A DNA stretch of 64,000 nucleotides from Cordylochernes scorpioides (lineage: Eukaryota; Arthropoda; Arachnida; Pseudoscorpiones; Chernetidae). Below, one piece after another: positions 1,886-61,807 of the stretch. How positions within the stretch are numbered: position 1 is the first letter of the stretch; every line of letters starts with the position of its first letter. Below the pieces are notes generated by a model. That model was given only the letters and a program-made list of their open reading frames with translations. It was not told the origin of the DNA and searched no databases. The stretch is from positions 113,088,010-113,152,009 of the forward strand of contig CP092863.1 in assembly GCA_030710605.1 (NCBI GenBank), given 5' to 3'. A program made the position numbers and the translations under genes.

Positions 1886-2005
1886 GCGACTGCTTATTCG
1901 TCAGAGTTATTCTGCTTGTTTCGCAGCTGGCCTTCATATCTGAAGGTCGTTCCCCTATCCGCCACCTGGGGACGCACCCTATAGCAGTCAGCTCTGCCAA
2001 GGGGA

Positions 2006-22728: not shown

Positions 22729-23021
22729 AAAGATACTTATTGTTAATTTTTTTAAAATTAATTTTAGAATATTAAGAAACCTACACCTTTGGTGTCACAG
22801 ATTTGAAATATCGGCAAAAATTCACGTTCAATTTAACACTATCATTAAATTTATTATTATACTGTACTTATATATTTTTTCATAATTAAGGTCTTAAAAT
22901 ATTTTGACCATATTTAATCTTATTTGTATTTTCTATTTGTACATTTTTATTTTTTCGGGAAACATTGTTTTTGTTTTGAATATTATGTAACCTACATTGC
23001 TTATTTCTAAATCATTGAAAC

Positions 23022-24254
23022 ATGGCTTTTACATCAGTTCCAGTAATTAATGTTGATGATTCTAATTTAAAAAAAATATGGCCAAATATCATACATTCAA
23101 TAAAACAATCATTATATGTATCAATTGATTTGGAATATAGTGGTATTGGCGATAAGAAAAATCTCCGTGCGCCTTCTGTTGAAGATAGATATACCTATAT
23201 GGCAGAATTAGCTAAAACAAGATCCATATTGTCTTTAGGCATATCTTGCTTCAATCATAAAGGTACAGACGAAAAAAATACAAAATGTCATCATTTTGAA
23301 GCTACAGCATATAACATTTTCGTTTTGTGTACAGAATCCTATATTATTGAACCTTGTTCAATGAAATTTCTTGCTGAAAATGGATTTAATTTCAATAAAC
23401 ACTATGGATATGGAATACCATATTATAAAGGTAATGATAAAGGTATTGATGAAGATATTTGTATCAGAAAATTGATCAGTACAATAATCTATTTAAAAAA
23501 AACAATTATTGTTCATAATGGACTTTTAGATTTGGTTTATTTGTATCATTGTTTTTATTGTAATATACCATCCAATTTTCGAACCTTTCTAACAGACTTA
23601 ACAGAAATGTTTCCAAATGGTATATTTGATACTAAATACTTAATTGAATACCATATACGTCTTCAAGCATCTTATCTTGAGTATGTGTTCCGTTATCGAC
23701 AAAGAGAAAACTATGATAAAATTAAAGCGGGAAGAAATTACGCAGAAGTAACTTTTCACAATACCAATGAAGATCAAGTATATTCAACAACCCATGATGT
23801 AAATATAAATCCCATTAACACACCACAGCACAAGAATATATGTAAAAATTATGCTAATTATGGTTGGTGCACTAAACAAAATGAATGTCCAAAGTCGCAT
23901 AGGATTGACGACATTGTCGATGTTGCATATTGTAAGATGGAGGGAGCAAGAAAGATGTCAAAGTTAGAGCCCGAGGTGGTAAACAGTTCGTCGAAGGTGT
24001 TCAATTCTGGGAAACATGACGCTGGAATGGATGCTTTTATGACTGGATTTATCTTTGCAACGTATCTGGCAACACGGTTCAGAACAGACGACTACTCGCT
24101 GGAGAATGCACAGTTGGACCACCTACAGAACAACCTCTACTTGATGGGCAAGGACATCCCGCTGAAGGTGATTGAAAGCTGCTTCTCCAGAATCTCAGAA
24201 AACCACAGAGCCAAGTACAAGAAACTTCAGCTGGAACTGGCAGAGACTCTGTAA
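23022..24254 (+). CDS. TOE1: Target of EGR1 protein 1 (TOE1), 3'-exonuclease
   Basis: 410 residues, one exon. It has a CAF1-type DEDD deadenylase: SIDLEYSG at 34-41 (catalytic D36, E38), HNGLLDLVYLY near 166, FDTKYLIEY after it, and HDAGMDAFMTG at 332-342 (H332, D337). A CCCH zinc finger, CKNYANYGWC-X5-C-X3-H, lies near 275-293 and is inserted in the nuclease fold as in TOE1. In animals TOE1 is a Cajal-body 3'-5' exonuclease that trims the tails of snRNAs and other small RNAs. All motifs are intact and there is no stop. AATAAA follows near 24268. It is shorter than human TOE1 (about 510), mainly at the termini. Base composition is AT-rich up to about codon 300 and clearly more GC-rich after about 23930. 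Confidence 0.95.
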   Translation: MAFTSVPVINVDDSNLKKIWPNIIHSIKQSLYVSIDLEYSGIGDKKNLRAPSVEDRYTYMAELAKTRSILSLGISCFNHKGTDEKNTKCHHFEATAYNIFVLCTESYIIEPCSMKFLAENGFNFNKHYGYGIPYYKGNDKGIDEDICIRKLISTIIYLKKTIIVHNGLLDLVYLYHCFYCNIPSNFRTFLTDLTEMFPNGIFDTKYLIEYHIRLQASYLEYVFRYRQRENYDKIKAGRNYAEVTFHNTNEDQVYSTTHDVNINPINTPQHKNICKNYANYGWCTKQNECPKSHRIDDIVDVAYCKMEGARKMSKLEPEVVNSSSKVFNSGKHDAGMDAFMTGFIFATYLATRFRTDDYSLENAQLDHLQNNLYLMGKDIPLKVIESCFSRISENHRAKYKKLQLELAETL

Positions 24255-24349
24255 ATCTATTTTATAATAAAATATGTTTTCCTTCCACAACACACTGGCT
24301 TTGTATAATAAACTCTCTTCCTCATTGTAGTACATTGGTGTAAACTGTC

Positions 24350-25140
24350 CATTGTTGACAGGTGGGTAGTGACTGCTTTTACTGTAAGTGCACCACATGT
24401 CTACACATGTAGAAAGGACTTTTGCACATAAAATTGTGTAACAGTTTGATAATCATGGTGTGTAGTTAGCAATTGTTTTTACTGTAAGTGTGCACCACAT
24501 TCTACACATGTAGAAAGGACTTTTGCACATAAAATTGTGTAACAGTTTGATAATCATGGTGTGTAGTTAGCAATTGTTTTTACTGTAAGTGTGCACCACA
24601 TTCTACACATGTAGAAAGGACTTTTGCACATAAAATTGTGTAACAGTTTGATAATCATGGTGTGTAGTTAGCAATTGTTTTTACTGTAAGTGTGCACCAC
24701 ATTCTACACATGTAGAAAGGACTTTTGCACATAAAATTGTGTAACAGTTTGATAATCATGGTGTGTAGTTAGCAATTGTTTTTACTGTAAGTGTGCACCA
24801 CATTCTACACATGTAGAAAGGACTTTTGCACATAAAATTGTGTAACAGTTTGATAATCATGGTGTGTAGTTAGCAATTGTTTTTACTGTAAGTGTGCACC
24901 ACATTCTACACATGTAGAAAGGACTTTTGCACATAAAATTGTGTAACAGTTTGATAATCATGGTGTGTAGTTAGCAATTGTTTTTACTGTAAGTGTGCAC
25001 CACATTCTACACATGTAGAAAGGACTTTTGCACATAAAATTGTGTAACAGTTTGATAATCATGGTGTGTAGTTAGCAATTGTTTTTACTGTAAGTGTGCA
25101 CCACATTCTACACATGTAGAAAGGACTTTTGCACATACAA
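24350..25140 (-). repeat. 101-bp tandem array made from a SINE fragment
   Basis: About 7.5 units with a period of exactly 101 bp (unit starts at 24481, 24582, 24683 and so on), nearly identical to each other. Each unit contains TGATAATCATGGTG, TTTTACTGTAAGTG, CACCACATTCTACACATGTA and GGACTTTTGCACAT, which come from the tail half of the SINE family. The first, partial unit (24355-24420) is closer to the parent SINE than the rest, so it marks the origin. Confidence 0.92.
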
Positions 25141-25399
25141 GTTTCATTCATTATTACAGGATTGAGGATTTTGACAAATTCCAAAATCATATAATGCCAC
25201 AACTCTGTTTTTTAATCACTTGATCAAAGGAAGTGTTTGGGCGGCAACCCCTTCTTCAGATAACATAACTAAATGTTGGCTGAAGAATTCCTTGATCAGA
25301 GGTGAATAAAAAATAAAAAGAGTTGTAGCGATATATCTTCTTCATCTTTCTCCACTCTTTCTCTTCTCCACTCAATCATATTAAGGTATCAAGCTTGTT
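25141..25399. repeat. Foldback remnant
   Basis: Short inverted matches around CACTTGATCAAAGGAAGTG and TTCCTTGATCAGAGGTGAA, with no coding. The class is not determined. Confidence 0.4.
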
Positions 25400-29496: not shown

Positions 29497-29600
29497 AATT
29501 ACAAACACAAGGTAATAAGACCAAATACAAATAAATAGTGTGTGACGTTTCAGTAACAGTGTTGTTACCATCTTCAGACAAAAGTACTGAATCCATTCAT
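29497..29600. mobile_element. Foldback MITE family F1, half element
   Basis: One arm only: ACACAAGGTAATAAGACCAA to CCATCTTCAGACAAAAGTAC. It stops before the centre. Confidence 0.75.
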
Positions 29601-29648
29601 TCATTCATTATACATTCAGCTAGCATTTAGTAGATATATCGGAATTCA

Positions 29649-30868
29649 GACAATAACTCTAAAATATACACTCATGGATAAAACTTAAGGAAGTTGTACC
29701 TTTTAGCATGTATATCGGGATTCTGACAATAACTCTGAAAGATACACTCATGGATAAAACTTAAGGTAGTTGTACCTTTTAGCATGTATATCGGGATTAT
29801 AACTCTGAAAGATACACTCATGGACAAAACTTAAGGAAGTTGTACCTTTTAGCATGTATATCGGGATTCTGACAATAACTCTGAAAGATACACTCATGGA
29901 TAAAACTTAAGGTAGTTGTACCTTTTAGCATGTATATCGGGATTATAACTCTGAAAGATACACTCATGGACAAAACTTAAGGAAGTTGTACCTTTTAGCA
30001 TGTATATCGGGATTCTGACAATAACTCTGAAAGATACACTCATGGACAAAACTTAAGGAAGTTGTACCTTTTAACATGTATATCGGGATTCTGACAATAA
30101 CTCTGAAAGATACACTCATGGACAAAACTTAAGGAAGTTGTACCTTTTAACATGTATATCGGGATTCAGACAATAACTCTGAAAGATACACTCATGGACA
30201 AAACTTAAGGAAGTTGTACCTTTTAACATGTATATCGGGATTCAGACAATAACTCTGAAAGATACACTCATGGATAAAACTTAAGGAAGTTGTACCTTTT
30301 AACATGTATATCGGGATTGAGACAATAACTCTGAAAGATACACTCATGGACAAAACTTAAGGAAGTTGTACCTTTTAACATGTATATCGGGATTCAGACA
30401 ATAACTCTGAAAGATACACTCATGGACAAAACTTAAGGAAGTTGTACCTTTTGACATGTATATCGGGATTCTGACAATAACTCTGAAAGATACACTCATG
30501 GATAAAACTTAAGGAAGTTGTACCTTTTAGCATGTATATCGGGATTCTGACAATAACTCTGAAAGATACACTCATGGACAAAACTTAAGGAAGTTGTACC
30601 TTTTAGCATGTATATCGGGATTCTGACAATAACTCTGAAAGATACACTCATGGACAAAACTTAAGGAAGTTGTACCTTTTAGCATGTATATCGGGATTCT
30701 GACAATAACTCTGAAAGATACACTCATGGATAAAACTTAAGGAAGTTGTACCTTTTAGCATGTATATCGGGATTCTGGTAATAACTCTGAAAGATACACT
30801 CATGGACAAAACTTAAGGAAGTTGTATTTTTTAGCATGTATATCGGGATTCAGACAATAACTTTGAAA
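29649..30868. repeat. 76-bp tandem array derived from a Tc1-like MITE terminus
   Basis: About 16 units of 76 bp, with shorter ones lacking CTGACA. Each carries GATACACTCATGGACAAAAC, TTAAGGAAGTTGTACCTTTT and AGCATGTATATCGGGATT. These are the terminal 76 bp of the MITE at 10836-11121 in inverted orientation. The array ends in a flank (30868-30945) that continues as the MITE interior, so the array grew from one end of a real element. Confidence 0.93.
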
Positions 30869-31300
30869 GATGTTACAGTGACCTTTATTTTGAAGACACA
30901 CAAGATAACCAAGTGTGAACAGTCTCTGTCTCCTTCAAAAATAAAAAAAAATGACTGGAGCGATTTCAAAGGCTTTCCACTTTCTCAGTTTTATCTCCAT
31001 GTATGTGAGTCCATCTGTGTGTGACTTAATAAAGGCTTTGGTGTGCGAGTATTTTCAAGGTCAACTGTTGACCACTACACACAGCTGCAATGTTCCTTCA
31101 ATATTTCAGGAGTACAGTCAAAACTTCTTAAACCTTTCTCTTCTTCTTCTTTCTTATCTCCACTCAATCATATTAAGGTATCAAGCTTGTAAAGCTTGTT
31201 GATGGTGTCTGCCGGGGATGAGGAGAGCTCATCAATGGATGAGTCAATACAGTCAATAATGTGGTTTGGGGTTGCATGTTGAGTTAAACCTTTCTGAATC
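30869..31300. repeat. MITE remainder and a LINE-like tail
   Basis: GATAACCAAGTGTGAACAGT belongs to the Tc1-like MITE, and TGACTTAATAAAGGCTTTGG (31021-31040) resembles the LINE 3' end. The part from 31130 matches 26110-26480. No gene. Confidence 0.55.
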
Positions 31301-33236: not shown

Positions 33237-35372
33237 CTAGCTGGAGTCCTCGTCGCTCTCCTCAATGGCAACCTTCTTCTTCTTGCCCTCAGTCCGCTTC
33301 CTCTCCAGGATGTCATCATCATCATCGTCGTCATCATCATCCAGGACCTTGCTCTGCTCCAGTCTCTTGGTCCGGATCTCCTCGTCCGATCCCTCCTCGT
33401 CGGAGGAGTAGATGGACTGCCGTTCCTTGGTGGAGAGTCGGCCTCCCTTCTTGTACTTGTTCTTGATGGCGGAGAGGGAGATGGCCCCTTCGTCGTCATC
33501 GCCGTCTTCCAAGTAGGAAGCGCTGATGCCGCGGGTGTGGGACTTCTCCTTCATCCTCCGTTGCTTGTTCTCCCTGCGAATGGAGGCCCTCAACTTGTCC
33601 TCCTCCTTCTTGATCTTCTCCGACCTGTTAGCCTCGGGGTCCATGCCCACATTGGGCAGCACCCGGATCTTCTGGGTCTTCTGGTTGCGGTCTGCTAGGG
33701 ACAGGGTCATCTTGCGATGGGTGAAGCTGTCCGTGGAGTGGGGCCGGAAGGTCAGCTTGGTCCTGAACACAGCCTGACCCTGGAGGCCGGTCCCCTGCCG
33801 GATATAGAGGTGGTTGTGGTCTCCAGGCATCAAGTTCTGTCTGTGGACATCAAAGATCTCAGTACCCAGGTGCATAGAGAGGCTTCCGTCTGACCAGCGG
33901 ATGATCTTGGCATTGCTGATCTTGTTCTCATTCCCTTCCTCGTCCAGCTCAGTCTTCCACCGGATGGTGTTCTCCACCTTGAGCTTCAGCCTGGCTCGGC
34001 CCTCTTCATCCAGTACCTCATCTTCATCCACCTCGTCCTCATAGGTTTCCGGGTCGTACGGCCTGGTGTCCACACTGAGGAAATTGGGAAGCTTGACAAA
34101 ATGTAGCTCGTCCCCCAAGTTGGCAGAAATTCTGGGAATTTCCACCTCAATCCGAGTTTCCTGTGGAGGAGGCTCTTCTTCTTCCTCGTCTTCCTCAAAT
34201 GCCGGCCTCCTCACAGGCTCCTCCTCCACTTCCATCTTCTCCTGCTGCTCCTCCTCCGAGCTCAGCTCCCCAAACAGATCTTGGGCCGTTGCCTTCGACT
34301 TATCCTCATCTTCTTCATCGGAGTCCTTGGTTGCAGACTCATCACCAGAGCCTTCTGTTCGAACATGCTTCTTCTTCCTGCCAATAATTGAACCATCCGA
34401 CCCGTCAGAATCTTGTTTCTCTTCCTGAGCAGCGGAACCCTCAGCATCTGAAGCACGGGATGGAGACCCTGGTTCTGATCCCTCAAGATTTTGCCTCTTG
34501 GCTTGGTTTTCATCATCAGATTCTTTTTCATCATCCTCAGAGCGTTTCCTTTTTCTTGAACTTGAAGAACCATGGGAAGCATCTGATTCTGCTTGTTCAT
34601 TCCCAGATCTTTCCCCATCAGATTCATTTGTTTCCATTTTTGTTGAGCCTTCCTCATCTTCGGAGTGTGATTTCTTTTCACTTTCCTTTTCATCATCTGA
34701 TGCTTGTTCTGCTTCATGGACAGAACTCTTCTCTGCATCAGAGTTTTCTTCACCAGAATGCTCTGCCTCAGAATTTTCAGCTTCACTCTGGGCTTTTTCA
34801 CTACTGGCTGGGCTACGTTCTGAGGACTTGCGTGGGCTATGTTCAACCTCTGAACCTGATTCATCATTTTTTTCATGTGTTTCTTCTTGTTCCTCTTCCT
34901 CATCTGAACCACGAGTTACTGCTTCCTCTTCCTCTTCATGTTTTTCTTCTTCTGAATTACTACCATCACCTGAATGATGGCTTCCTGCATCAGAATGTTG
35001 GCTTTCTTCATTTTCTGAATGTTGTTCTGCCTCACTTTCTGAACGGGCTTGTTCTTCTGCCTCAGAATGGCGTTCTTCGTCATCCGAATTTTGTTCATTT
35101 TCTTCTGCATCTGATGCTGCTTCATTTTGTGATGCGACGCTTTCTCGATCAGAATGTTCTGCATTACCTTGACTTCCTTCATTATCCGATGATTCGGAAT
35201 TATTTTCATTACCAGATGATGCAGCTTGTGGCGAATGCTGTTCTTGTTCGTCGCTGTCACTATTATTTTGACGGGGCGACCCTACCGAATGCTCACTTTC
35301 GGCATCCGATTGTTCGTGGGCAGATTGCGGACTATTTTGGGAATATTCACTACTATTAGGGCTATCTCCCAT
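33237..35372 (-). CDS. LEO1: RNA polymerase-associated protein LEO1
   Basis: 711 residues in one exon, starting [20 protein letters not shown] and ending IEESDEDSS. Residues 1 to about 400 are a low-complexity, Ser/Glu/Asp-rich acidic region. The conserved Leo1 domain follows (about 405-600): [61 protein letters not shown] and [12 protein letters not shown] basic/acidic tail closes the protein. LEO1 is a subunit of the Paf1 complex, which travels with RNA polymerase II and supports histone H2B ubiquitination, H3 methylation and elongation. Length is close to the human protein (666). AATAAA lies downstream on the minus strand near 33175. Codons are AT-rich in the first 900 bases and GC-rich afterwards. 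Reading frames on the opposite strand are shadows. Confidence 0.97.
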
Positions 35373-36029
35373 TATAATTTAATAAGGCGGACTATATATA
35401 ATAGTATGGTTATTTTTATTATTAAATAATTTATTAGAAATAGTGTAAACACATTTATTTTAAACAAAATAAAAAATATAAGGTCAAAATGAAATATATT
35501 ACTATCACTGAATTGAAAAAAATCTATATTAATAAAATGCATATTTTATATATTTAAAAAATATAACTTATATTTTATTTAGTTTTAATTTTATAGCTTC
35601 AAAATTTTAATTATATTTTATACTAGTCTTATAATTATTATTTAAAAATTTTAAATTCTTTAAAGTAACTATACAAGTATATAAACGATTTTAACATTCG
35701 AATTTTTGATATTTTTGAATATTCACAAAACATTTGGACTTTAGAATTTTTATTACTCAAAATCATATTTAAAAATCGGTGTTTTTTATTATTATATTTT
35801 TATATCCACTAGTCTAGCTCATGCGAAATTTAAATCACTGAAATGTTAAATATTAGTTTGGTAATTTAAAAAGAAGAAATCTGAAATTTATTACACTTGA
35901 TAGTACCACCCAGAATTATTTTTATAGTAAACAAATTTCTTAATCAAATTATTTAGATAAAAATTGCTTTAACATGTATAGAAACTAAGAAGGTAAGTTT
36001 TCTCTTATGATTTCTGAAAAAAAAAAAAA
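35373..36029. other. AT-rich region upstream of LEO1
   Basis: Very AT-rich, with no recognisable element or gene. It should hold the LEO1 promoter by position. A 20-bp A run is at about 36017-36037. Confidence 0.4.
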
Positions 36030-43454: not shown

Positions 43455-43815
43455 GCAGACATTTCTATTGACTATACAGACATTTGATGAGGGAAGAAGG
43501 AAATATATGAAAATAGAAACGAAATAATATAAATATTATCATTTTATAACCATCAGTATATATTAAATGGATAAATTAACTAAGCCAACAATTAAACAGT
43601 TTAAAATAGAAATAAAAAGGGGGAAATGAAATATAAAGTATAAATATTTTTTTATTTTCAAAAATATTTTTATAAAAAAAAATAATTATGAGGGCTATGA
43701 CAAGGTTCACGCTGCAAAAGCTTCGGCAGTTACGCGTCATATATGCAGAACATAAGATTAAAGGGAAAGAGGTGAAGAGAGTTAGAGTATAAAAAAAGCT
43801 AAATATATATATCTA
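43455..43815. other. AT-rich spacer
   Basis: Between the gypsy element and the Helitron pair. No gene or repeat recognised. Confidence 0.5.
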
Positions 43816-44650
43816 CTAGCGGATGTGTACCCGGCTTCGCCCGGGTTTTATCCGAGTGAAAGTTTGCCTAACGAATATTATATATTATGAAGTATAATAA
43901 ACAATGCTAAAGATTAGTTTTAATTATTAATCAAAATTTTTTGTGAATATGTGAGAAAGATGTAATATCGTTGTTGTTTTCTTGGCCGACTGTTTTACAT
44001 ATGGTGTTATCTTAAAATTGCTTGTTTTGAATATTTTTTTTAGATTGAGTTGAATGAATTGCTGAATTTTTTTTGTATTTATATATAAATAAAATTAACT
44101 CTGTTGAATTTTTTTTTGTATTTTATCGATAACAGCAAAGTTATGTATTTTAAAGTTAGGAAAAATATTTTGATGTTAAGCAAAACCTGCTCCATCTCGT
44201 TTTACATAAATGTTGAAAATTTGGTCGAAATTGATGCATTGTAACGAAAGTTTATAGCGAACACCACTTATGAAATTTCCATTTATATAGAAGATATAAT
44301 ATAAATGAGTTTTAAAAATTGTTTAAAAAAAATGCATCGGCCGGGAATCGAACCCTGGCCGCCCGCGTGGCAGGCGAGCATTCTACCACTGAACCACCGA
44401 TGCTTTAAAAAAATCAAATTCATTTATCGTCGCGACAAGTGCTGCGCCCTAGCGGTAAAAGACTGGAACTAACGCTTTTTGGTTTTTATTTAAAAAAAAA
44501 AGCACATTAACTTTTTTAGTTTTTTGAATAGCCTATATGTTAAACGAAATCTTCAGCTACCTACATGCGAAATTCCATAATGATTGAGTCAGTAGATTTT
44601 GCGTGATGCGATAACAAACATCGATTTCGCATTTCATTTTTATATATATA
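43816..44650 (-). mobile_element. Helitron-like unit 1 carrying tRNA-Gly
   Basis: 835 bp. Minus-strand 3' end: hairpin CCCGGGCGAAGCCGGG, spacer TACACATCCG, CTAG, then T. The 5' part, TATATATATAAAAATGAAAT, and the ACTGACTCAATCATTATGGA block match the start structure seen at 15847. It is arranged head to tail with unit 2, which repeats it with few differences. There is no replication protein, so it is non-autonomous. Confidence 0.72.
44333..44403 (-). tRNA. tRNA-Gly(GCC), best-preserved copy
   Basis: 71 nt on the minus strand: GCATCGGTGGTTCAGTGGTA, AGAATGCTCGCCTGCCACGC, GGGCGGCCAGGGTTCGATTC, then CCGGCCGATGCA. Anticodon GCC sits in the expected loop (CCTGCCACG). The acceptor, D and anticodon arms pair normally, and A and B boxes are present. 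The one departure from the usual arthropod tRNA-Gly is an A in place of C in the T stem, producing an A-G mismatch; the same change is in all three copies in the window. It could be a working gene or a mobile-element passenger. Confidence 0.85.
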
Positions 44651-45490
44651 CTAGCGGATGTGTACCCGGCTTCGCCCGGGTTTTATCCGAGTGAAAGTTT
44701 GCCTAACGAATATTATATATTATGAAGTATAATAAACAATGCTAAAGATTAGTTTTAATTATTAATCAAGATTGTGTGTGAATATGTGAGAAAGATGTAA
44801 TATCGTTGTTGTTTTCTTGGCCGACTGTTTTACATATGGTGTTATCTTAAAATTGCTTGTTTTGAATATTTTTTAGATTGAGTTGAATGAATTGCTGATT
44901 TTTTTTTGTATTTATATATAAATAAAATTAACTCTGTTGATTTTTTTTGTATTTTATCGATAACAGCAAAGTTATGTATTTTAAAGTTAGGAAAAATATT
45001 TTGATGTTAAGCAAAACCTGCTCCATCTCGTTTTACATAAATGTTGAAAATTTGGTCGAAATTGATGCATTGTAACGAAAGTTTTTAGCGAACACCACTT
45101 ATGAAATTTCCATTTATATAGAAGATATAATATAAATGAGTTTTAAAAATTGTTAAAAAAAAAAAGCATCGGCCGGGAATCGAACCCTGGCCGCCCGCGT
45201 GGCAGGCGAGCATTCTACCACTGAACCACCGATGTTTTAAAAAAATCAAATTCATTTATCGTCGCGACCAGTGCTGCGCCCTAGCGGTAAAAGACTGGAA
45301 CTAACGCTTTTTGGTTTTTTATTTTTTAAAAAAAGCACATTAACTTTTTTTAGTTTTTTGAATAGCCTATATGTTAAACGAAATCTTCAGCTACCTACAT
45401 GCGAAATTCCATAATGATTGAGTCAGTAGATTTTGCGTGATGCGATAACAAACATCGATTTCGCATTTCATTTTTATATATATATAAGGA
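44651..45490 (-). mobile_element. Helitron-like unit 2 carrying tRNA-Gly
   Basis: Repeats unit 1 at a distance of 835 bp with scattered small changes (for example CAAAATTTTTT against CAAGATTGTGTG). The same 3' hairpin and CTAG (44651-44654) abut the 5' end of unit 1. The outer 5' limit near 45490 (TCCTTATATATATATAAAAA) is approximate. Confidence 0.72.
45166..45235 (-). pseudogene. tRNA-Gly(GCC) pseudogene, acceptor end changed
   Basis: As the copy at 44333, including the T-stem change, but the first base is A rather than G (plus 45235 is T), which breaks the 1:72 pair, and the discriminator is T rather than A. Likely impaired. Confidence 0.8.
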
Positions 45491-45771: not shown

Positions 45772-46617
45772 TGTTAAAACTATTTTATAGATCCTTTTCT
45801 TTTGTACATAGAAGGAAGGTCTTAGGTGAAGGGAGACCACGAGCAAGACATCTATATCTATAGATAGCCCCAGCTTGGACCGACCGAGGGCAAAGGTCGG
45901 CGTGGGCGGAGACGACGGAGCGTCATGTTACATTCTTTTTTGGTCAGATGGCAGGATTCCCTTGTTAGAAGCGGAGGGGAAAGTTGAGTTCCCTTGCCAG
46001 GCGGAGCAGACACGCCAAGAAAATCCTACAAGCAGCGTCTTGTAGACGGAACGACGTCGAAGAAAATCCCACGAGCAGAGTCACGTGGACGGAAAGACGT
46101 CGAAGAAAATCCCACGAGCAGAGTTTCGTGGACGGGAAAGGACGCATTGGAGTATCCCTCAAGCAGCAACTTGAGGACGGAAAAGGACGTCTTAGACAAC
46201 CAACGAGTCGTGACAATTAGACAACCAACGCGCGACAATTGGACATCGCACAAGACAAGAAAAGCCTGCGACGGTGCTGCCACTCCAGAGGTACTGTGTA
46301 AACAAACGCTCGACACCCCCCCCCCCCGCCATTTATTTTTGTCTTCCTTCCCTAAGACTACTTTAATTTTTTTACTTTCTCTTTTGCTTAACCTTGTTTA
46401 TTGTTTTTTATACATAACCCCTTAGATATAAGTATAATTTAGCTTAACCATTTTTCTTGTTTTTACCCATAATAATAGTATAATAGTTTTTATCCCTTTT
46501 GTTTTTAATTTTTTAAAATAAATCCTTTTGTTATACTGTGTTTCTGTGCATTTATTTCCCCCATTGTTTTTCCTTTCAATCGATCACCCTTTTATTTTTT
46601 TTAAACGAACACGAACA
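45772..46617 (+). repeat. BEL 5' LTR with a four-hairpin array
   Basis: 846 bp. Contains TATAGATAGCC near 45878 as a possible promoter, four 20-nt stem-loops at 46026-46176, a C-run at 46315-46327 and AATAAA near 46518. Ends GAACACGAACA. Confidence 0.95.
46026..46176 (+). other. Array of four 20-nt hairpins with compensatory stems
   Basis: CTACAAGCAGCGTCTTGTAG (46026-46045), CCACGAGCAGAGTCACGTGG (46069-46088), CCACGAGCAGAGTTTCGTGG (46112-46131) and CCTCAAGCAGCAACTTGAGG (46157-46176). Each is 20 nt and starts 43, 43 and 45 nt after the one before. Stems differ but stay paired: pair 2 is T-A, then C-G three times; pair 3 is A-T three times, then T-A; pair 5 is A-T, G-C, G-C, A-T. All have the GCAG loop entry. 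Repeated in the 3' LTR. Function is unknown; a structured RNA or a protein-binding array is inferred. Confidence 0.85.
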
Positions 46618-46653
46618 TTTTGGTGAGCCGGACGTGATCGATTTAAGGGAAAT

Positions 46654-49600
46654 ATGGAGGAAATGGATGCACTTAAAAAGCGCAGGAAAGCCATAAGAGG
46701 TACTTTCACTAGAATTATCAATGAAATAAATGGGGAATTTGAAAAGTCTCAAATTGATAGGAATGATATTTATTCTAAATTTAATAGACTAGAGTCTTAT
46801 TACACGAAACTTGTAGATCTAAACGAAAAATATCAGGCTTTATTGGTAGTGAAAGAAGGGATTACAGAGGAAAGTATTGATAAGGAATGGCAAGAATGCG
46901 ATAAATATGAAGAGGAAAAGTTTGATATTCAACAGAAAGTCAGTGTACTACGGAATCCCGATAAAGAAGAAACAATCCCGATTGCTAGCGAGGACACTGT
47001 AATAAATGTGAAATTACCAGAGTTAGCCCTAAAAAGCTATGACGGCTCTCTGGAAGGTTGGTTGCCCTGGTGGGCGCAGTTTTCGAAAATTCACGAAAAT
47101 AAGAATTTATCCGATAGCGACCGGTTTTTATATTTGCGTCAAGCAATTGTACCAAATTCAGAAGCCTATCGTGTTGTAGCAAGCTATCCCGTTACAGGCG
47201 CCAACTATGTTTTGGCAGTACAAGCCCTACAGGAGCGATTCGGTGACCCGAATATACTGACAGAACTGTATGTCAGACGTCTATTGAATTCGGTTATATC
47301 TAATGTAAAGAAGGAAAATAGAAATTTAAGCAGTCTGTACGACGAACTGAGCAGTCACCTCCGGTCGTTAGAGACACTGGGCATTGATCCCCAGTTGTCG
47401 GGTATTTTTTTATACCCTCTTGTCGAGTCTTCATTACCTTCGGATATTTTGAAAATATGGCACAGGCATCCTTCTTCGGGTTATGGTATGGAGTTAGCAA
47501 AACGGGAAGAGTCAGATAAAGGGGTTGGAGGAGCTCAAGAAAGGCTCAGGTTATTATTGGACTTTCTAAAAGCCGAAGTAAGGAGTGCTCAACGGCTGAA
47601 ATTTGTGGAAAAAGGCTTTAAGCAGGAGGAACCCTATAAAAGGTCTTACAATGATGGGACCAGAACAAGGAGCAATTTCAGACCCGCCACTGTGTCTAGT
47701 CTGTTCGGAGGGCGAACTAATATAAAATGCTTCTTTTGTGAAAGAACAAATCATGCGAGTCATCAATGCCGCTCCATAATGAAAATGTCTCCGGGAGAGA
47801 GAAATGATAAAATACGTAGTGCCCATCTATGTTTCAAATGCTTAAGAAAGGGACACATACAGAGTCAGTGCCGAGAACAATTGGAGTGCAAAAACTGTGG
47901 GAGAAACCACTTGGAAGTTTTATGTGAAGGAAATTCTTCTAACCGGTTAACGAAACCGGGAAGAGAAAATCCAAAGGAAAATGCAACTGAACCCGTTGCA
48001 TCGCTTTCTAGTCAAGCCTGCACAGGTCAGGTCTTGCTGATGACCACGGTAGCACTGTTAAGAGGCCCAAATGCCTCTAGAAGGGTTAGAATTCTCCTCG
48101 ACAGTGGAAGTCAGTTTTCGTATATCAAACAGTCGTTAGTCTGGAGTATAGGAATAGAAAGAAAGGGCGAAATAACCATAGCTAAAAGTCTTTTTGGAGG
48201 TAATAAGATTGGTGAAGAAAAGCACGGTAAATTTATGTTAGAATTAGAGAATTTAGGTAATAAAAGAGATGTGATCCATATTGAGGCGCTGGATCAACGT
48301 AAAATTTGCGACGCCATACCACCTTTGCCAAAAGGAGACTGGTTAGAAAAATTGAAGATTAAGGGCATAATATTGTCTCAGGACAATTTTAAAGGACAAG
48401 AGATTGACATATTGATTGGCGCTAACTATCTAGGTATGATTTTGACAGGAAAAATAGTTCAAGTTGAAGCAGATTTAACTGCGGTGGAAACGAAATTAGG
48501 TTGGACACTAATGGGCAATTCGCCAATTATTGATAGCAATGACAATGTGCAGCAGACTTTGAATCTGCTAACAACGCGATGCGATTTAAAGGATTTGTGG
48601 GATCTAGAAGTACTAGGCATTAGGGATCCTGTTGAAACTTGCTCCAAAGAGACCAGATATCAGGAAATAAAAGAAAAGTTTATAACAAAAATTCAAAGAC
48701 AAAGTGATCAGAGATATTCTGTAGGTCTACCTTGGAAGGTAGAAAATGAGTCAATCCCCAGCAATCTTGACATAGCGATAAAAAGGTTAGATATAAGCAC
48801 TAAGAAAATGACCTCACAGAATAAGTTGACCGAATATAGTCAGATCTTTAGAGACTGGCTGACTGAAGGACTCATTGAAAGAGTCGAGGAAAATCCTCTC
48901 GAGAGAAGAGGCTATTATTTACCTCACCGCCCTGTGTACAAGATGGAATCTAAAACGACGCCCATACGTCCGGTTTTCGATGCTTCTTGTCTAGGCCATA
49001 ATGGACTATCTTTGAATCAATGTTTAGAAAAGGGACCGAATTTATTGGAAAGAATCCCTGAAATGATGATAAGATTTCGGGAAAATAAATTTGGAGTCAC
49101 GGCAGATATAAGAAAAGCATTCCAGATGGTGGCGATTGAAGAATCTGAACGGAACTATCTTAGATTCCTTTGGTGGGAAAAGGAGAGCGAAAGAGAACTA
49201 ATAGCTTACAGGCATAAGAGACTTGTATTTGGCTTAAACTGTAGTCCTTTTGTGCTGAACGCCGTAATAGAATACCATCTTCAATCAATAAGAGGCCCAC
49301 TTGTTCAATGGGCAAAGATTTTAGCTCAATCCTTCTACATGGACAATTGTATTACCTCGCTGGAAACCAAGCAGGAAGTGCAGGAATTTCAAAAGGCCGC
49401 AATTGAAATTATGGACAGGGCTAAAATGGACTTACGAGAGTGGGAATATTCTCTGGAGGAAAACCCTGAAAAGGGGACTTGTACAAAAATATTGGGTGTT
49501 GTTTGGAATAAAATGGAAGATTCATTAAAATGCGAACTCCCTGACAATTTGAGTCTTCAACCCAAATTAACGAAAAGGTTGGTACTGTCCATGGTTCAGC

Positions 49601-50259
49601 GGATATTTGATCCACTTGGATTTTGCGCTCCAGTATTCTTGACACCAAAGTTGTTACTGCAGCGATCATGGGGACTGAAACTAGGTTGGGATACACCTCT
49701 ACCCGAAAGTATGGCCCAGGAATTTCGAACCTGGTTGGATCAAATAAAATTAATAGAGTTAATAAAGATACCGAGATATATGTGGAATGATCTCATTTTC
49801 CCTACAGAAGTTCATATCTTTTGTGACGCTAGTCAAATAGGCTATGGAGCTGTTGCCTATTTACGGAGCGAAACGGGACGAGAAAATACTCTAACTTTGA
49901 TTTGGAGCAAAGTCAGATTAGCTCCTATGATGAGTATTACGATCCCTCGCTTGGAATTAATGGCCATGGTACTAGGAGCTAGACTAGCCAATGCAATCCA
50001 AGCTGCCTTGAAGAGAAAATGTGAAACAACTCTTTGGTCTGACTCTACTACCGCGCTAAGTTGGATAAAGAAAGAAATTGAGTGGAGAGTTTTCGTGAGA
50101 AACCGAGTCAGAGAAATACAGGCCACTACCAATTTGAACGATTGGAGGTTCGTTCCTAGTCAGTTGAACCCGGCCGATCTTCTGTCTCGAGGTTGCCCTC
50201 CAAGCCAGTTTGTGCAAAGCAGATGGTGGGAGGGCCCCCGAATGGTTGAAAAAACCTAA
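46654..50259 (+). CDS. BEL/Pao gag-pol (gag, protease, RT, RNase H)
   Basis: 1201 residues from an ATG 36 bp after the LTR. Gag is followed by CCHC-type knuckles (CFFCERTNHASHQC near 362, CFKCLRKGHIQSQC near 393, CKNCGRNHLEVLC near 413). Protease is at about 480 (LLDSGSQFSYI). RT has FDASCLGHNGLSLNQCL, TADIRKAFQMV, LVFGLNCSPFVLNAVI, and YMDN near 895 where most RTs have YxDD. RNase H follows (FCDASQIGYGAVAY near 1054, then LWSDSTTALSWI and NPADLLSRGC). The frame ends after SRWWEGP because of an extra base in a C-run at about 50236-50240. Confidence 0.93.
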   Translation: MEEMDALKKRRKAIRGTFTRIINEINGEFEKSQIDRNDIYSKFNRLESYYTKLVDLNEKYQALLVVKEGITEESIDKEWQECDKYEEEKFDIQQKVSVLRNPDKEETIPIASEDTVINVKLPELALKSYDGSLEGWLPWWAQFSKIHENKNLSDSDRFLYLRQAIVPNSEAYRVVASYPVTGANYVLAVQALQERFGDPNILTELYVRRLLNSVISNVKKENRNLSSLYDELSSHLRSLETLGIDPQLSGIFLYPLVESSLPSDILKIWHRHPSSGYGMELAKREESDKGVGGAQERLRLLLDFLKAEVRSAQRLKFVEKGFKQEEPYKRSYNDGTRTRSNFRPATVSSLFGGRTNIKCFFCERTNHASHQCRSIMKMSPGERNDKIRSAHLCFKCLRKGHIQSQCREQLECKNCGRNHLEVLCEGNSSNRLTKPGRENPKENATEPVASLSSQACTGQVLLMTTVALLRGPNASRRVRILLDSGSQFSYIKQSLVWSIGIERKGEITIAKSLFGGNKIGEEKHGKFMLELENLGNKRDVIHIEALDQRKICDAIPPLPKGDWLEKLKIKGIILSQDNFKGQEIDILIGANYLGMILTGKIVQVEADLTAVETKLGWTLMGNSPIIDSNDNVQQTLNLLTTRCDLKDLWDLEVLGIRDPVETCSKETRYQEIKEKFITKIQRQSDQRYSVGLPWKVENESIPSNLDIAIKRLDISTKKMTSQNKLTEYSQIFRDWLTEGLIERVEENPLERRGYYLPHRPVYKMESKTTPIRPVFDASCLGHNGLSLNQCLEKGPNLLERIPEMMIRFRENKFGVTADIRKAFQMVAIEESERNYLRFLWWEKESERELIAYRHKRLVFGLNCSPFVLNAVIEYHLQSIRGPLVQWAKILAQSFYMDNCITSLETKQEVQEFQKAAIEIMDRAKMDLREWEYSLEENPEKGTCTKILGVVWNKMEDSLKCELPDNLSLQPKLTKRLVLSMVQRIFDPLGFCAPVFLTPKLLLQRSWGLKLGWDTPLPESMAQEFRTWLDQIKLIELIKIPRYMWNDLIFPTEVHIFCDASQIGYGAVAYLRSETGRENTLTLIWSKVRLAPMMSITIPRLELMAMVLGARLANAIQAALKRKCETTLWSDSTTALSWIKKEIEWRVFVRNRVREIQATTNLNDWRFVPSQLNPADLLSRGCPPSQFVQSRWWEGPRMVEKT

Positions 50260-50743
50260 AGAATTCTGGCCTAATTCAGAGTTCTCGATAAATCCAAAAG
50301 AAATAAATGTTGAAGAAAACATTATGAAAACCAGAGAATTAAAGCAGAGATTCTTAAAGGAATATTTAGGCGCGCTTATTCAGAAATCCGAAAATATTGA
50401 TAGAAGACAGTTGAAAGTAGGAGACGTTGTACTGATCGGGCAAGAAAATCTTAAAAGAATGTTTTGGCCTAAAGGGCGAATAGTAAATCTCATTCCAGGA
50501 AAAGATGGAATAGTGAGAGTGGCCCATGTTAAAACATCCACAGAAACCTTGATCAGGGCTCTACAACGCTTACACCCTCTTGAAATATCCTCGAATGTTA
50601 AGACGATTCAAATGGACAATTCAAATACCGAACCCCAATCTGAAGCATTTTTAGGAAATAGGCCCAATATTGAATCCAGGGACTCTAGAAATAGATATGG
50701 TAGGGTAATCAGAAAGCCTGCAAGGTATGACTCGAAGGACTAG
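50210..50743 (+). pseudogene. BEL/Pao pol 3' remnant (C-terminal domain, integrase lost)
   Basis: Frame of 177 residues. Its start overlaps the end of gag-pol in another frame. PEWLKKPKEFWP is the normal post-RNase H sequence, but within 30 residues it moves to LKQRFLKEYLGALIQ and VGDVVLIGQENLKRMFWPKG, the domain that normally follows the integrase. The zinc-binding and catalytic parts of the integrase (several hundred residues) are gone. Confidence 0.9.
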
Positions 50744-50911
50744 TGAAAGTACCTATAGAGAAGAAAAAAAAAGGTGTAATATGTGTATTCTTTTATGTGT
50801 ATTTTATGTAATGTAATAGGCATATCTACTCTTGTGTGTATTGTGTATATATATGCTCTTTTGTCTTATACTTAATTTTGACTTCTTTCAGAGCAAAATT
50901 ATGTGGGAGAA

Positions 50912-51758
50912 TGTTAAAACTATTTTATAGATCCTTTTCTTTTGTACATAGAAGGAAGGTCTTAGGTGAAGGGAGACCACGAGCAAGACATCTATATCTA
51001 TAGATAGCCCCAGCTTGGACCGACCGAGGGCAAAGGTCGGCGTGGGCGGAGACGACGGAGCGTCATGTTACATTCTTTTTTGGTCAGATGGCAGGATTCC
51101 CTTGTTAGAAGCGGAGGGGAAAGTTGAGTTCCCTTGCCAGGCGGAGCAGACACGCCAAGAAAATCCTACAAGCAGCGTCTTGTAGACGGAACGACGTCGA
51201 AGAAAATCCCACGAGCAGAGTCACGTGGACGGAAAGACGTCGAAGAAAATCCCACGAGCAGAGTTTCGTGGACGGGAAAGGACGCATTGGAGTATCCCTC
51301 AAGCAGCAACTTGAGGACGGAAAAGGACGTCTTAGACAACCAACGAGTCGTGACAATTAGACAACCAACGCGCGACAATTGGACATCGCACAAGACAAGA
51401 AAAGCCTGCGACGGTGCTGCCACTCCAGAGGTACTGTGTAAACAAACGCTCGACACCCCCCCCCCCCCGCCATTTATTTTTGTCTTCCTTCCCTAAGACT
51501 ACTTTAATTTTTTTACTTTCTCTTTTGCTTAACCTTGTTTATTGTTTTTTATACATAACCCCTTAGATATAAGTATAATTTAGCTTAACCATTTTTCTTG
51601 TTTTTACCCATAATAATAGTATAATAGTTTTTATCCCTTTTGTTTTTAATTTTTTAAAATAAATCCTTTTGTTATACTGTGTTTCTGTGCATTTATTTCC
51701 CCCATTGTTTTTCCTTTCAATCGATCACCCTTTTATTTTTTTTAAACGAACACGAACA
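50912..51758 (+). repeat. BEL 3' LTR
   Basis: 847 bp; the only difference I found from the 5' LTR is one added C at about 51455-51467. Repeats the four hairpins at 51166-51316. Confidence 0.97.
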
Positions 51759-55800: not shown

Positions 55801-56375
55801 TTCTCCTAGTTGATGAATATACCCACAATCATCCCGAGGATCTGACTTTGAGAGATTTTTTCTACTGACAATTTTATTCCAGGAAAGTGAGTTACAATAT
55901 ACTAGTGGCTTTCCCTACTAATTGGAACCACGCTTAATCGGAACAATTAGAGAACTTGCAATAAAATAATTCATAAATTTCAAATCTTAGAACCTTGAAC
56001 CCAAAGATGCGCACTGTGTTATTAATGCAAACACTGTAGTTGCTTAAAGTAAATAATATTTGAGGCAATGTTCATAGTAAAAGACACTTCAAGCCTAAGC
56101 TTGCTAAGAGAATTCTAAACAAAGTTTCATTGATTCTGCAGCTGATGAATGGAGCACGCCCAGGAAAATCCCGAAGGGGGCGTGCGACGGCTGTGACATC
56201 ATACTAATGAGATAGGTGACGTAATTCTGTCTTCAATAAAATACGCCACAAATCCTATCGGAAGTACAAGACCATCGTCGCTATCGCGTACTTCGGAGAA
56301 TTTGGCAACACATGCCAGATAACATTCCAGCTCCGTAACCTTGAAATTGTCCGTCGTTGAGGCGGCACATCTGTG
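55801..56375. other. Unclassified flank of the satellite
   Basis: From 56240 a frame reads SYKTIVAIAYFGEFGNTCQI, TFQLRNLEIVRR, then stop; it looks slightly coding-like but is short and unrecognised. Nothing else is seen. Confidence 0.35.
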
Positions 56376-59300
56376 GGGTGTGGCTCTCGGTACTGTATGT
56401 TCTGTCCCTCGGTGTGGCTCTCAGCACTGTATGTTCTGTCCCTCGGTGTGGCTCGCAGCACTGTATGTTCTGTCGCTCGGTGTGGCTCTCAGCACTGTAT
56501 GTTCTGTCCCTCGGTGTGGCTCTCAGCACTGTATGTTCAGTCCCTCGGTGTGGCTCTCAGTACTGTATGTTCTGTCGCTCGGTGTGGCTCTCAGTACTGT
56601 ATGTTCTGTCCCTCGGGGTGGCTCTCAGCACTGTATGTTCTGTCCCTCGGTGTGGCTCTCAGCACTGTATGTTCTGTCCCTCGGTGTGACTCTCAGCACT
56701 GTATGTTCTGTCCCTCGGTGTGGCTCTCAGCACTGTATGTTCTGTCCCTCGGTGTGACTCTCAGCACTGTATGTTCTGTCCCTCGGTGTGGCTCTCAGCA
56801 CTGTATGTTCTGTCCCTCGGTGTGGCTCTCAGCACTGTATGTTCTGTCCCTCGGTGTGGCGGCACATCTGTGGGGTGTGGCTCTCAGTACTGTATGTTCT
56901 GTATCTCGGTGTGGCTCTCAGCACTGTATGTTCTGTCCCTCGGTGTGGCGGCACATCTGTGGGGTGTGGCTCTCAGTACTGTATGTTCTGTCCCTCGGTG
57001 TGGCTCTCAGCACTGTATGTTCTGTCCCTCGGTGTGGCGGCACATCTGTGGGGTGTGGCTCTCAGCACTGTATGTTCTGTCCCTCGGTGTGGCTCTCAGC
57101 ACTGTATGTTCTGTCCCTCGGTGTGGAGGTACATCTGTGGGGTGTGGCACTCAGCACTGTATGTTCTGTCCCTCGGTGTGGAGGTACATCTGTGGGGTGT
57201 GGCTCTCAGCACTGTATGTTTTGTCCCTCGGTGTGGAAGTACATCTGTGGGGTGTGGCTCTCAGCACTGTATGTTCTGTCCCTCGGTGTGGAAGTACATC
57301 TGTGGGGTGTGGCTCTCAGCACTGTATGTTCTGTCCCTCGGTGTGGCGGTACATCTGTGGGGTGTGGCTCTCAGCACTGTATGTTCTGTCCCTCGGTGTG
57401 GCGGTACATCTGTGGGGTGTGGCTCTCAGCACTGTATGTTCTGTCCCTCGGTGTGGAGTTACATCTGTGGGGTGTGGCTCTCAGCACTGTATGTTCTGTC
57501 CCTCGGTGTGGAGGTACATCTGTGTGGTGTGGCTCTCAGCACTGTATGTTCTGTCCCTCGGTGTGGCCCTCAGCACTGTATGTTCTGTCCCTCGGTGTGG
57601 AGTTACATCTGTGGGGTGTGGCTCTCAGCACTGTATGTTCTGTCCCTCGGTGTGGAGTTACATCTGTGGGGTGTGGCTCTCAGCACTGTATGTTCTGTCC
57701 CTCGGTGTGGAGGTACATCTGTGGGGTGTGGCTCTCAGCACTGTATGTTCTGTCCCTCGGTGTGGAGGTACATCTGTGGGGTGTGGCTCTCAGCACTGTA
57801 TGTTCTGTCCCTCGGTGTGGCGGTACATCTGTGGGGTGTGGCTCTCAGCACTGTATGTTCTGTCTCTCGGTGTGGCGGTACATCTGTGGGGTGTGGCTCT
57901 CAGCACTGTATGTTCTGTCCCTCGGTGTGGCGGTACATCTGTGGGGTGTGGCTCTCAGCACTGTATGTTCTGTCTCTCGGTGTGGCGGTACATCTGTGGG
58001 GTGTGGCTCTCAGCACTGTATGTTCTGTCCCTCGGTGTGGCGGTACATCTGTGGGGTGTGGCTCTCAGCACTGTATGTTCTGTCACTCGGGGTGGCTCTC
58101 AGCACTGTATGTTCTGTCCCTCGGTGTGGCTCTCAGCACTGTATGTTCTGTCCCTCGGTGTGACTCTCAGCACTGTATGTTCTGTCCCTCGGTGTGGCTC
58201 TCAGCACTGTATGTTCTGTCCCTCGGTGTGACTCTCAGCACTGTATGTTCTGTCCCTCGGTGTGGCTCTCAGCACTGTATGTTCTGTCCCTCGGTGTGGC
58301 TCTCAGCACTGTATGTTCTGTCCCTCGGTGTGGCGGCACATCTGTGGGGTGTGGCTCTCAGTACTGTATGTTCTGTATCTCGGTGTGGCTCTCAGCACTG
58401 TATGTTCTGTCCCTCGGTGTGGCGGCACATCTGTGGGGTGTGGCTCTCAGTACTGTATGTTCTGTCCCTCGGTGTGGCTCTCAGCACTGTATGTTCTGTC
58501 CCTCGGTGTGGCGGCACATCTGTGGGGGGTGCCTCTCAGTACTGTATGTTCTGTATCTCGGTGTGGCTCTCAGCACTGTATGTTCTGTCCCTCGGTGTGG
58601 CGGCACATCTGTGGGGTGTGGCTCTCAGCACTGTATGTTCTGTCCCTCGGTGTGGCTCTCAGCACTGTATGTTCTGTCCCTCGGTGTGGAGGTACATCTG
58701 TGGGGTGTGGCACTCAGCACTGTATGTTCTGTCCCTCGGTGTGGAGGTACATCTGTGGGGTGTGGCTCTCAGCACTGTATGTTTTGTCCCTCGGTGTGGA
58801 AGTACATCTGTGGGGTGTGGCTCTCAGCACTGTATGTTCTGTCCCTCGGTGTGGAAGTACATCTGTGGGGTGTGGCTCTCAGCACTGTATGTTCTGTCCC
58901 TCGGTGTGGCGGTACATCTGTGGGGTGTGGCTCTCAGCACTGTATGTTCTGTCCCTCGGTGTGGCGGTACATCTGTGGGGTGTGGCTCTCAGCACTGTAT
59001 GTTCTGTCCCTCGGTGTGGAGGTACATCTGTGGGGTGTGGCTCTCAGCACTGTATGTTCTGTCCCTCGGTGTGGCGGTACATCTGTGGGGTGTGGCTCTC
59101 AGCACTGTATGTTCTGTCCCTCGGTGTGGCGGTACATCTGTGGGGTGAGGCTCTCAGCACTGTATGTTCTGTCCCTCGGTGTGGCTCTCAGCACTGTATG
59201 TTCTGTCCCTCGGTGTGGAGGTACATCTGTGGGGTGTGGCTCTCAGCACTGTATGTTCTGTCCCTCGGTGTGGAGGTACATCTGTGGGATGTGGCTCTCA

Positions 59301-61735
59301 GCACTGTATGTTCTGTTCCTCGGTGTGGAGGTACATCTGTGGCGTGTGGCTCTCAGCACTGTATGTTCTGTCCCTCGGTGTGGAGGTACATCTGTGGGGT
59401 GTGGCTCTCAGCACTGTATGTTCTGTCCTTCGGTGTGGCGGTACATCTGTGGGGTGTGGCTCTCAGCACTGTATGTTCTGTCCCTCGGTGTGGAGTTACA
59501 TCTGTGGGGTGTGGCTCTCAGCACTGTATGTTCTGTCCCTCGGTGTGGAGGTACATCTGTGTGGTGTGGCTCTCAGCACTGTATGTTCTGTCCCTCGGTG
59601 TGGAGGTACATCTGTGTGGTGTGGCTCTCAGCACTGTATGTTCTGTCCCTCGGTGTGGCCCTCAGCACTGTATGTTCTGTCCCTCGGTGTGGAGTTACAT
59701 CTGTGGGGTGTGGCTCTCAGCACTGTATGTTCTGTCCCTCGGTGTGGAGGTACATCTGTGGGGTGTGGCTCTCAGCACTGTATGTTCTGTCCCTCGGTGT
59801 GGAGGTACATCTGTGGGGTGTGGCTCTCAGCACTGTATGTTCTGTCCCTCGGTGTGGCGGTACATCTGTGGGGTGTGGCTCTCAGCACTGTATGTTCTGT
59901 CTCTCGGTGTGGCGGTACATCTGTGGGGTGTGGCTCTCAGCACTGTATGTTCTGTCCCTCGGTGTGGCGGTACATCTGTGGGGTGTGGCTCTCAGCACTG
60001 TATGTTCTGTCACTCGGTGTGGCGGTACATCTGTGGGGTGTGGCTCTCAGCACTGTATGTTCTGTCCCTCGGTGTGGCGGTACATCTGTGGGGTGTGGCT
60101 CTCAGCACTGTATGTTCTGTCTCTCGGTGTGGCGGTACATCTGTGGGGTGTGGCTCTCAGCACTGTATGTTCTGTCCCTCGGTGTGGCGGTACATCTGTG
60201 GGGTGTGGCTCTCAGCACTGTATGTTCTGTCACTCGGTGTGGAGGTACATCTGTGGGGTGTGGCTCTCAGCACTGTATGTTCTGTCCCTCGGTGTGGCGG
60301 TACATCTGTGGGGTGTGGCTCTCAGCACTGTATGTTCTGTCTCTCGGTGTGGCGGTACATCTGTGGGGTGTGGCTCTCAGCATTGTATGTTCTGTCCCTC
60401 GGTGTGGCGGTACATCTGTGGGGTGTGGCTCTCAGCACTGTATGTTCTGTCTCTCGGTGTGGCGGTACATCTGTGGGGTGTGGCTCTCAGCACTGTATGT
60501 TCTGTCCCTCGGTGTGGCGGTACATCTGTGGGGTGTGGCTCTCAGCACTGTATGTTCTGTCACTCGGTGTGGAGGTACATCTGTTGGGTGTGGCACTCAG
60601 CACTGTATGTTCTGTCCCTCGGTGTGGAGGTACATCTGTGGGGTGTGGCTCTCAGCACTGTATGTTCTGTCTCTCGGTGTGGAGTTACATCTGTGGGGTG
60701 TGGCTCTCAGCACTGTATGTTCTGTCCCTCGGTGTGGAGGTACATCTGTGGGGTGTGGCACTCAGCACTGTATGTTCTGTCCCTCGGTGTGGCGGTACAT
60801 CTGTGGGGTGTGGCTCTCAGCACTGTATGTTCTGTCCCTCGGTTTGGCGCTATATTCGTGGGGTGTGGCTCTCAGCACTGTATGTTCCGTCCCTCGGTGT
60901 GGAGGTACATCTGTGGGGTGTGGCCCTCAGCACTGTATGTTCTGTCCCTCGGTGTGGCTCTCAGCACTGTATGTTCTGTCCCTCGGTGTGGCGGTACATC
61001 TGTGGGGTGTGGCTCTCAGCACTGTATGTTCTGTCCCTCGGTGTGGAGGTACATCTGTGGGGTGTGGCCCTCAGCACTGTATGTTCTGTCCCTCGGTGTG
61101 GCTCTCAGCATTGTATGTTCTGTCACTCGGTGTGGCTCTCAGCACTGAATGTTCTGTCCCTCGGTGTGGCGGTACATCTGTGGGGTGTGGCTCTCAGCAC
61201 TGTATGTTCTGTCCCTCGGTGTGGAGGTACATCTGTGGGGTGTGGCACTCAGCACTGTATGTTCTGTCCCTCGGTGTGGAGGTACATCTGTGGGGTGTGG
61301 CCCTCAGCACTGTATGTTCTGTCCCTCGGTATGACTCTCAGCACTGTATGTTCTGTCCCTCGGTGTGGAGGTACATCTGTGGGGTGTGGCTCTCAGCACT
61401 GTATGTTCTGTCCCTCGGTGTGGAGGTACATCTGTGGGGTGTGGCTCTCAGCACTGTATGTTCTGTCCCTTGGTGTGGAGGTACATCTGTGGGGTGTGGC
61501 TCTCAGCATTGTAGTTATGTCCCTCGGTGTGGAGGTACATCTGTGGGGTGTGGCTCTCAGCACTGTATGTTCTGTCTCTCGGTGTGGCGGTACATCTGTG
61601 GGGTGTGGCTCTCAGCATTGTATGTTCTGTCCCTCGGTGTGGAGGTACATCTGTGGGGTGTGGCTCTCAGCATTGTAGTTCTGTCCCTCGGTGTGGCGGT
61701 ACATTTGTGGGGTGTGGCTCTCTGCACTGTATGTT
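56376..61735. repeat. 5.4-kb GC-rich satellite of 34- and 55-bp units
   Basis: Two unit types alternate. The short one is 34 bp (TGTGGCTCTCAGCACTGTAT, GTTCTGTCCCTCGG). The long one is the same plus a 21-bp insert (TGTGGAGGTACATCTGTGGGG, with variants CGG, AGT, AAG). Short units dominate 56376-57150 and 58090-58700; long units dominate elsewhere. Blocks of several hundred bases recur (for example 56690-57400 and 58150-59000), showing higher-order duplication. All three plus-strand frames stay open for long distances; I treat these as a by-product. Confidence 0.95.
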
Positions 61736-61807
61736 TTGTCCGCAATGTCCGCGGATGTCTGCAATTTGGTGTTCTGTTGGACAATATATCAGGTTAAACT
61801 TTTGAGC

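Follow-up and report, generated by a model that had tools for sequence, protein, structure and literature searches.

The best described relatives of the elements considered here are the Helitrons, of which the canonical form, as outlined in PMC4067079, starts with TC after A, inserts at A|T, is without terminal inverted repeats or target duplication, and has at its 3' end a palindrome of 16-20 nt, about 11 bp away, and then CTRR followed by T. The capture of pieces of protein genes by such elements is well known, and the Helraiser Helitron is documented to read past its 3' end as far as a later terminator, in both cases as summarised in PMC4778049. A tRNA gene enters the picture in Arabidopsis, where a cluster of tRNA-Cys genes overlapping annotated Helitrons consists of tandem one-tRNA units with CTAG motifs; its authors propose a tandem duplication of tRNA-containing Helitrons, and, in the outline given there, three Helitron finders returned no reliable prediction over the tRNA genes (PMC10701932). 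Our literature search, largely at the level of abstracts and for that reason weak evidence, found no Helitron-carried tRNA gene besides this one. The Dada transposons are likewise DNA transposons tied to tRNA genes, but according to the summaries in PMC3706591 and PMC8869645 they insert into tRNA and snRNA genes as targets, whereas in the present case the tRNA gene lies inside the element.

The evidence base is a 64-kb window, by which we mean the whole stretch of DNA analysed, in which elements of this kind occupy two independent loci. At one of these, two units lie head to tail on the minus strand, at 43816-44650 (unit 1, 835 bp) and 44651 to about 45485 (unit 2, ~835 bp), and align with 819 identities, 12 mismatches and 7 gap columns (97.7% by blastn), in agreement with the two head-to-tail units of about 835 bp proposed in a first-pass annotation of this DNA. 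The GC hairpin followed by CTAG|T, which that annotation had placed at the 3' end of each unit, is present in both, as an 18-nt palindrome (43829-43846 in unit 1, 44664-44681 in unit 2) lying 9 nt before CTAG|T, with the CTAG of unit 1 at 43819-43816 and the next T at 43815. Each unit also contains, in the orientation of the element, the tRNA-Gly(GCC) gene that had been read there, called by both Rfam and ARAGORN and followed by a run of T. The 5' edge of unit 2 is indistinct, lying in a TA tract; a candidate A|TC is seen at 45498, for this outer unit only, and the tandem junction, which reads CTAG|TATATATA / CTAG|TATATATATAAAAATG, is without TC.

Less than 300 bp from the tandem units lies a BEL/Pao-type retrotransposon (45772-51467, plus strand), which is probably young because its LTRs at 45772 and 50912 share 556 identical bases, with the likeness resuming past a difference in the length of a C run, and because it retains an open frame of 1210 aa. 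A link between this retrotransposon and the units by way of tRNA-Gly priming was considered and set aside, since TGGTGCATC is absent across the whole window.

The second locus holds copy 3, a composite of 846 bp at 15003-15848, also on the minus strand, which runs from A|TC (T at 15848) to CTAG|T (CTAG at 15006-15003, T at 15002) and has a 19-nt palindrome at 15014-15032, 7 nt before CTAG|T. Within it an outer 5' arm (15633-15848) is followed by a block containing the tRNA gene, and the block directly by A|TCTTCTATATATATAAAAATG, a Helitron-type 5' end, from which the 518 bp onward to CTAG|T (15003-15520) make up an element by themselves. The outer 5' end, at 15848, and the inner one are alike, with 33 identities and 5 mismatches, a score reached by 0 of 200 shuffles. 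Between its A|TC and its CTAG|T, copy 3 thus contains a 5' arm, then the tRNA block and then an entire Helitron-type element; the parts of the tandem units follow in the same order.

Outside the block the two loci are distant relatives. In the outer arm, ~90 bp are related between unit 2 and copy 3 (63 identities, 16 mismatches and 11 gap columns; 0 of 500 shuffles), and the remainder, about half of the arm, is unalignable, its score being reached by 387 of 500 shuffles. In their inner 5' regions, unit 1 and copy 3 share 42 identities against 22 mismatches (22/64), and the last 60 nt of the units and of copy 3 share 38 identities against 11 mismatches (11/49); since each of these two comparisons beats all 500 shuffles, we take the backbones to be distant, and presumably old, relatives. 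The inner bodies, once trimmed, are weakly above chance (4 of 500 shuffles). Because the inner 5' regions are related, the inner part of unit 1 (43816-44294, from TCTTCTATATAAATGG to CTAG) probably starts with a Helitron 5' end that has diverged. Within unit 2, on the other hand, outer and inner 5' regions show no likeness to one another (132 of 200 shuffles reach the score), which leaves a second Helitron 5' end inside the tandem units weakly supported.

A further sequence of this type, at 18569-19122 on the plus strand, opens with a 5' end of Helitron type, A|TCTATATATATAAAAATGG, and has a palindrome close to position 19027 with an altered 3' end, GTCTA, in which CTAG is missing; joined directly to this palindrome are 73 bp with 95.9% identity to positions 15391-15463 in copy 3. 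It is a chimera of related elements, and as such provides a local precedent for rearrangement among them.

How far do these sequences belong to the Helitrons? At all three 3' ends a palindrome of 18-19 nt lies 7-9 nt before CTAG and T follows CTAG. Scanning for a GC-rich stem (5 bp or more) placed just ahead of CTAGT, with limits set after the sites were known, gave 3 matches in the 64 kb (43816, 44651 and 15003) and none in each of 30 dinucleotide shuffles, while a stricter hairpin scan of the window returned the 15-kb site only, and a loose palindrome-CTAGT pattern with one mismatch allowed gave 2 matches, which is not significant, at least 2 being found in 30 of 100 shuffles. At the other end, the motif A|TC(TC or TTC)TATATATATAAAA, likewise defined after the sites were known, has 3 matches (15848 and 15520 on the minus strand, 18569 on the plus strand) and none in 100 shuffles. 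In none of the four elements tested do the first and last 60 nt match in inverted orientation better than chance (116 to 433 of 500 shuffles do as well), and the flanks show no evident target duplication. The Helitron-type ends that had been claimed are accordingly supported by the palindromes, by CTAG|T and by the A|TC of copy 3; the tandem junction, without TC, is where the claim fits less well.

Set beside canonical non-autonomous animal Helitrons, as these are sketched in PMC4067079 and, for the Hel-2 family, in PMC4344730, the elements have the same palindrome size, the CTAG end and the A|T site, copy 3 shares the A|TC 5' end as well, and terminal inverted repeats are not above chance; they differ in that the tandem units have no clear TC and in that the composites enclose a tRNA gene. 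Membership of the Helentrons or HINEs was considered and rejected: the edges of copy 3 are A|TC and CTAG|T, not the TT preferred for insertion by that group, and its subterminal inverted repeats do not appear above chance in the elements examined, the best inverted case, in copy 3's inner element, being 11 nt with one mismatch, a match that 116 of 500 shuffles attain. The first-pass annotation had suggested looking for a relative with Rep/helicase. No such relative appeared among the Pfam families listed (25 of 26) for 62 of the 93 open reading frames of the window, nor was a Helitron Rep/helicase present in a further set of 9 window proteins, as is to be expected for a non-autonomous element. 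Patterns for the T-arm, the unit 3' end, palindrome-CTAGT (two patterns) and one 5' end had 0 matches in scans of a collection of viral contigs and, in one case, of genome contigs, a result uninformative on rarity, since a T-arm pattern permitting any base, the ordinary letter included, also gave 0 in both.

The state of the tRNA genes differs among the copies. That of unit 1 (44333-44403, minus strand, 71 nt) scores 59.4 bits with Rfam and is called by ARAGORN; in the Rfam alignment its sole non-standard pair is an A facing G in the T-stem, at a site where animal tRNA-Gly(GCC) genes usually have C. The gene of unit 2 (45165-45235, minus strand; 45164-45236 by ARAGORN) scores 51.3 bits and has, in addition to the T-stem A, a change of G1 to A by which the first acceptor pair is lost. 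In copy 3 a broken tRNA-Gly(GCC) of 63 nt (15559-15621, minus strand) carries the same T-stem A and is without 8 nt of the D arm, which were probably lost between two GTGG repeats. The claim that the third copy also holds a tRNA-Gly is borne out by an Rfam score of 37.1 bits, with the qualification that the D arm is 8 nt short and that ARAGORN calls no tRNA there. The single T-stem substitution said to unite the three is indeed found in every one, A facing G in three of three. A run of at least 8 T stands directly after each of the three tRNAs. In form, the cargo resembles a complete gene closed by a Pol III-type terminator; the loss of the first acceptor pair in unit 2 and of 8 nt of the D arm in copy 3 gives it the appearance of cargo now decaying.

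The tRNA genes do not stand alone in being shared, for each lies in a sharply bounded block that comprises 11 nt upstream, the tRNA, and ~50 nt downstream beginning with the T run and ending at TCTTCTATATA. The block occupies 44284-44414 in unit 1, 45115-45246 in unit 2 and 15510-15632 in copy 3, all on the minus strand, and between unit 1 and copy 3 it shows 3 mismatches in 123 aligned columns together with the 8-nt deletion. This is far fewer than the 16/79 of the outer arm between unit 2 and copy 3 (p 3e-5), and the non-tRNA flank of the block taken alone, with 3 of 61 positions mismatched, also differs less than the arms do (p 0.011). The divergence of the block, 3/123, does not differ from that of the two tandem units from each other, 12/831 (p 0.43). 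A common origin of the three tRNA copies, deduced at first from the T-stem letter, is therefore strengthened by the 11 nt upstream and ~50 nt downstream that they have in common. The accompanying idea of a single capture holds as regards this one origin, but the copying of one element alone is not supported, and the description of 15003-15850 as a more diverged copy is only partly apt: it may hold for the backbone, because the outer arm, the inner 5' region and the 3' end are all related, whereas the tRNA block is nearly identical and the divergence is thus not uniform. The best reading of these values would be that the block is recent and the backbones old, and that one captured block is shared between two distantly related backbones. 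As a nearly identical block sits in distantly related backbones, the history would include a transfer of the block, or of the arms.

We lean, with slightly better than even confidence, towards regarding the elements as non-autonomous composites of Helitron type whose cargo is a tRNA-Gly(GCC) gene, the block having passed between two backbones. Read in the orientation of the element, the composite would begin with a Helitron 5' arm, continue with the tRNA block (the tRNA preceded by 11 nt and followed by the T run and ~40 nt more), and end with a second Helitron-type 5' end running on to the palindrome and CTAG|T. In such a scheme, transposition would have begun at the upstream 5' end, met no working 3' terminator, crossed the tRNA gene by read-through and stopped at the CTAG of the next Helitron's 3' end, so fixing the tRNA gene in a new unit that was presumably mobile in the past. 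After capture the block could have passed between the two distantly related backbones by recombination, gene conversion or template switching via the related Helitron arms on both sides. The tandem pair would have arisen at about the same evolutionary distance as the sharing of the block; its source may be head-to-tail rolling-circle replication or an unequal exchange involving the TA tracts at the two edges, and the latter is slightly favoured because the junction is without TC.

Other histories can account for parts of this pattern. Since tRNA-Gly genes are usually multicopy, a host tRNA-Gly gene might have been repeated together with its flanks, different Helitrons then inserting independently, some downstream at the same A|T site and others upstream, in which case no element carries a tRNA at all. 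The completeness of the inner element of copy 3, whose 5' end lies exactly at the block border, would suit such insertions, as would the merely distant relationship of the backbones; the order of the parts, the TCTTC start and the related outer arms at both loci would, however, have to arise twice, and the tRNA sits within the duplicated tandem unit, so that we regard this history, including the absence of cargo that it implies, as rather unlikely. The relationship of the outer arm, the inner 5' region and the 3' end between the units and copy 3 (none of 500 shuffles in each case, and 4 of 500 for the trimmed inner bodies) could instead point to one ancient composite Helitron family that split into two old lineages, in which gene conversion, or selection on the tRNA, has since homogenised the tRNA blocks. 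Such a family is not favoured by the outer arm, roughly half of which is unalignable, and selection is an improbable cause, and one we have rejected, of the likeness of the blocks, given that the non-tRNA flank is itself more alike than the arms and that two of the three tRNAs are damaged. Taken as a whole we hold this family history to be unlikely, although its gene-conversion version overlaps with the explanation we prefer.

It is more improbable still that the units are not Helitrons but a SINE-like retroposon or a plain tandem cluster of tRNA genes. Eukaryotes commonly have tRNA genes in tandem units, and a unit read on the plus strand does end in a TA-rich tail. Against this stand unit borders that coincide with palindrome-CTAG|T, the at least 8 T directly after each tRNA, a run at which Pol III would terminate without reaching a SINE body, and a shared block that starts 11 nt before the tRNA; a tRNA-derived SINE, which should start at the tRNA and be read through into its body, was disfavoured in view of that upstream share and the T run.

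To judge from its genes, the window is eukaryotic DNA and probably that of an animal. It contains genes of BEL/Pao-type, Gypsy-type and Copia-type (RVT_2) retrotransposons, and at 2-1618 on the minus strand a frame of 539 aa, with an endonuclease domain of the non-LTR retrotransposon type, extends past the window edge; no match to this frame was found among solved structures. Two frames, of 713 aa for Leo1 (33237-35378, minus strand) and of 411 aa for a CAF1-family gene (23019-24254, plus strand), each run across the matched domain with no intron to interrupt them and may be retrocopies or reflect an intron-poor host. A minisatellite of 34- and 55-bp units (56275-61797) is open in several frames up to 1148 aa, probably as a by-product of the repeat. 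Further tandem arrays lie at 1991-3431 (51-bp units), 24299-25204 (101 bp) and 29501-31004 (76 bp), the 76-bp unit having relatives at 12564 and, inverted, near 10968.

Returning to the composite reading, with a tRNA-Gly gene as Helitron cargo, its resemblance to known captures is plain in that Helraiser and HelibatN3 likewise have host sequence inside a Helitron after a 3' end was passed; their cargo, in the summary of PMC4778049, is promoter and exon sequence of protein genes, whereas here it would be a whole Pol III gene. Compared with the Arabidopsis tRNA-Cys cluster, as it is outlined in PMC10701932, the present elements have clearer ends, with a palindrome and CTAG|T closing each unit, and the block recurs at a second, unlinked locus, although they are known from 64 kb alone.

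What, then, could such elements mean for the genome that harbours them? A tRNA gene has its promoter inside it and its terminator beside it, and a transported copy could therefore arrive ready to work, any transcription from the present copies being conjectural. It is a tentative and somewhat doubtful possibility that in an animal genome rolling-circle elements disperse whole Pol III genes that bring their own promoters, the block serving as modular cargo near the 5' end that moves between Helitron lineages; were this so, Helitrons would be a source of new tRNA genes, of tRNA pseudogenes and of Pol III sites. If the elements prove numerous, they would inflate tRNA gene counts and seed tRNA pseudogenes, and would offer a tractable case of cargo common to Helitron lineages.
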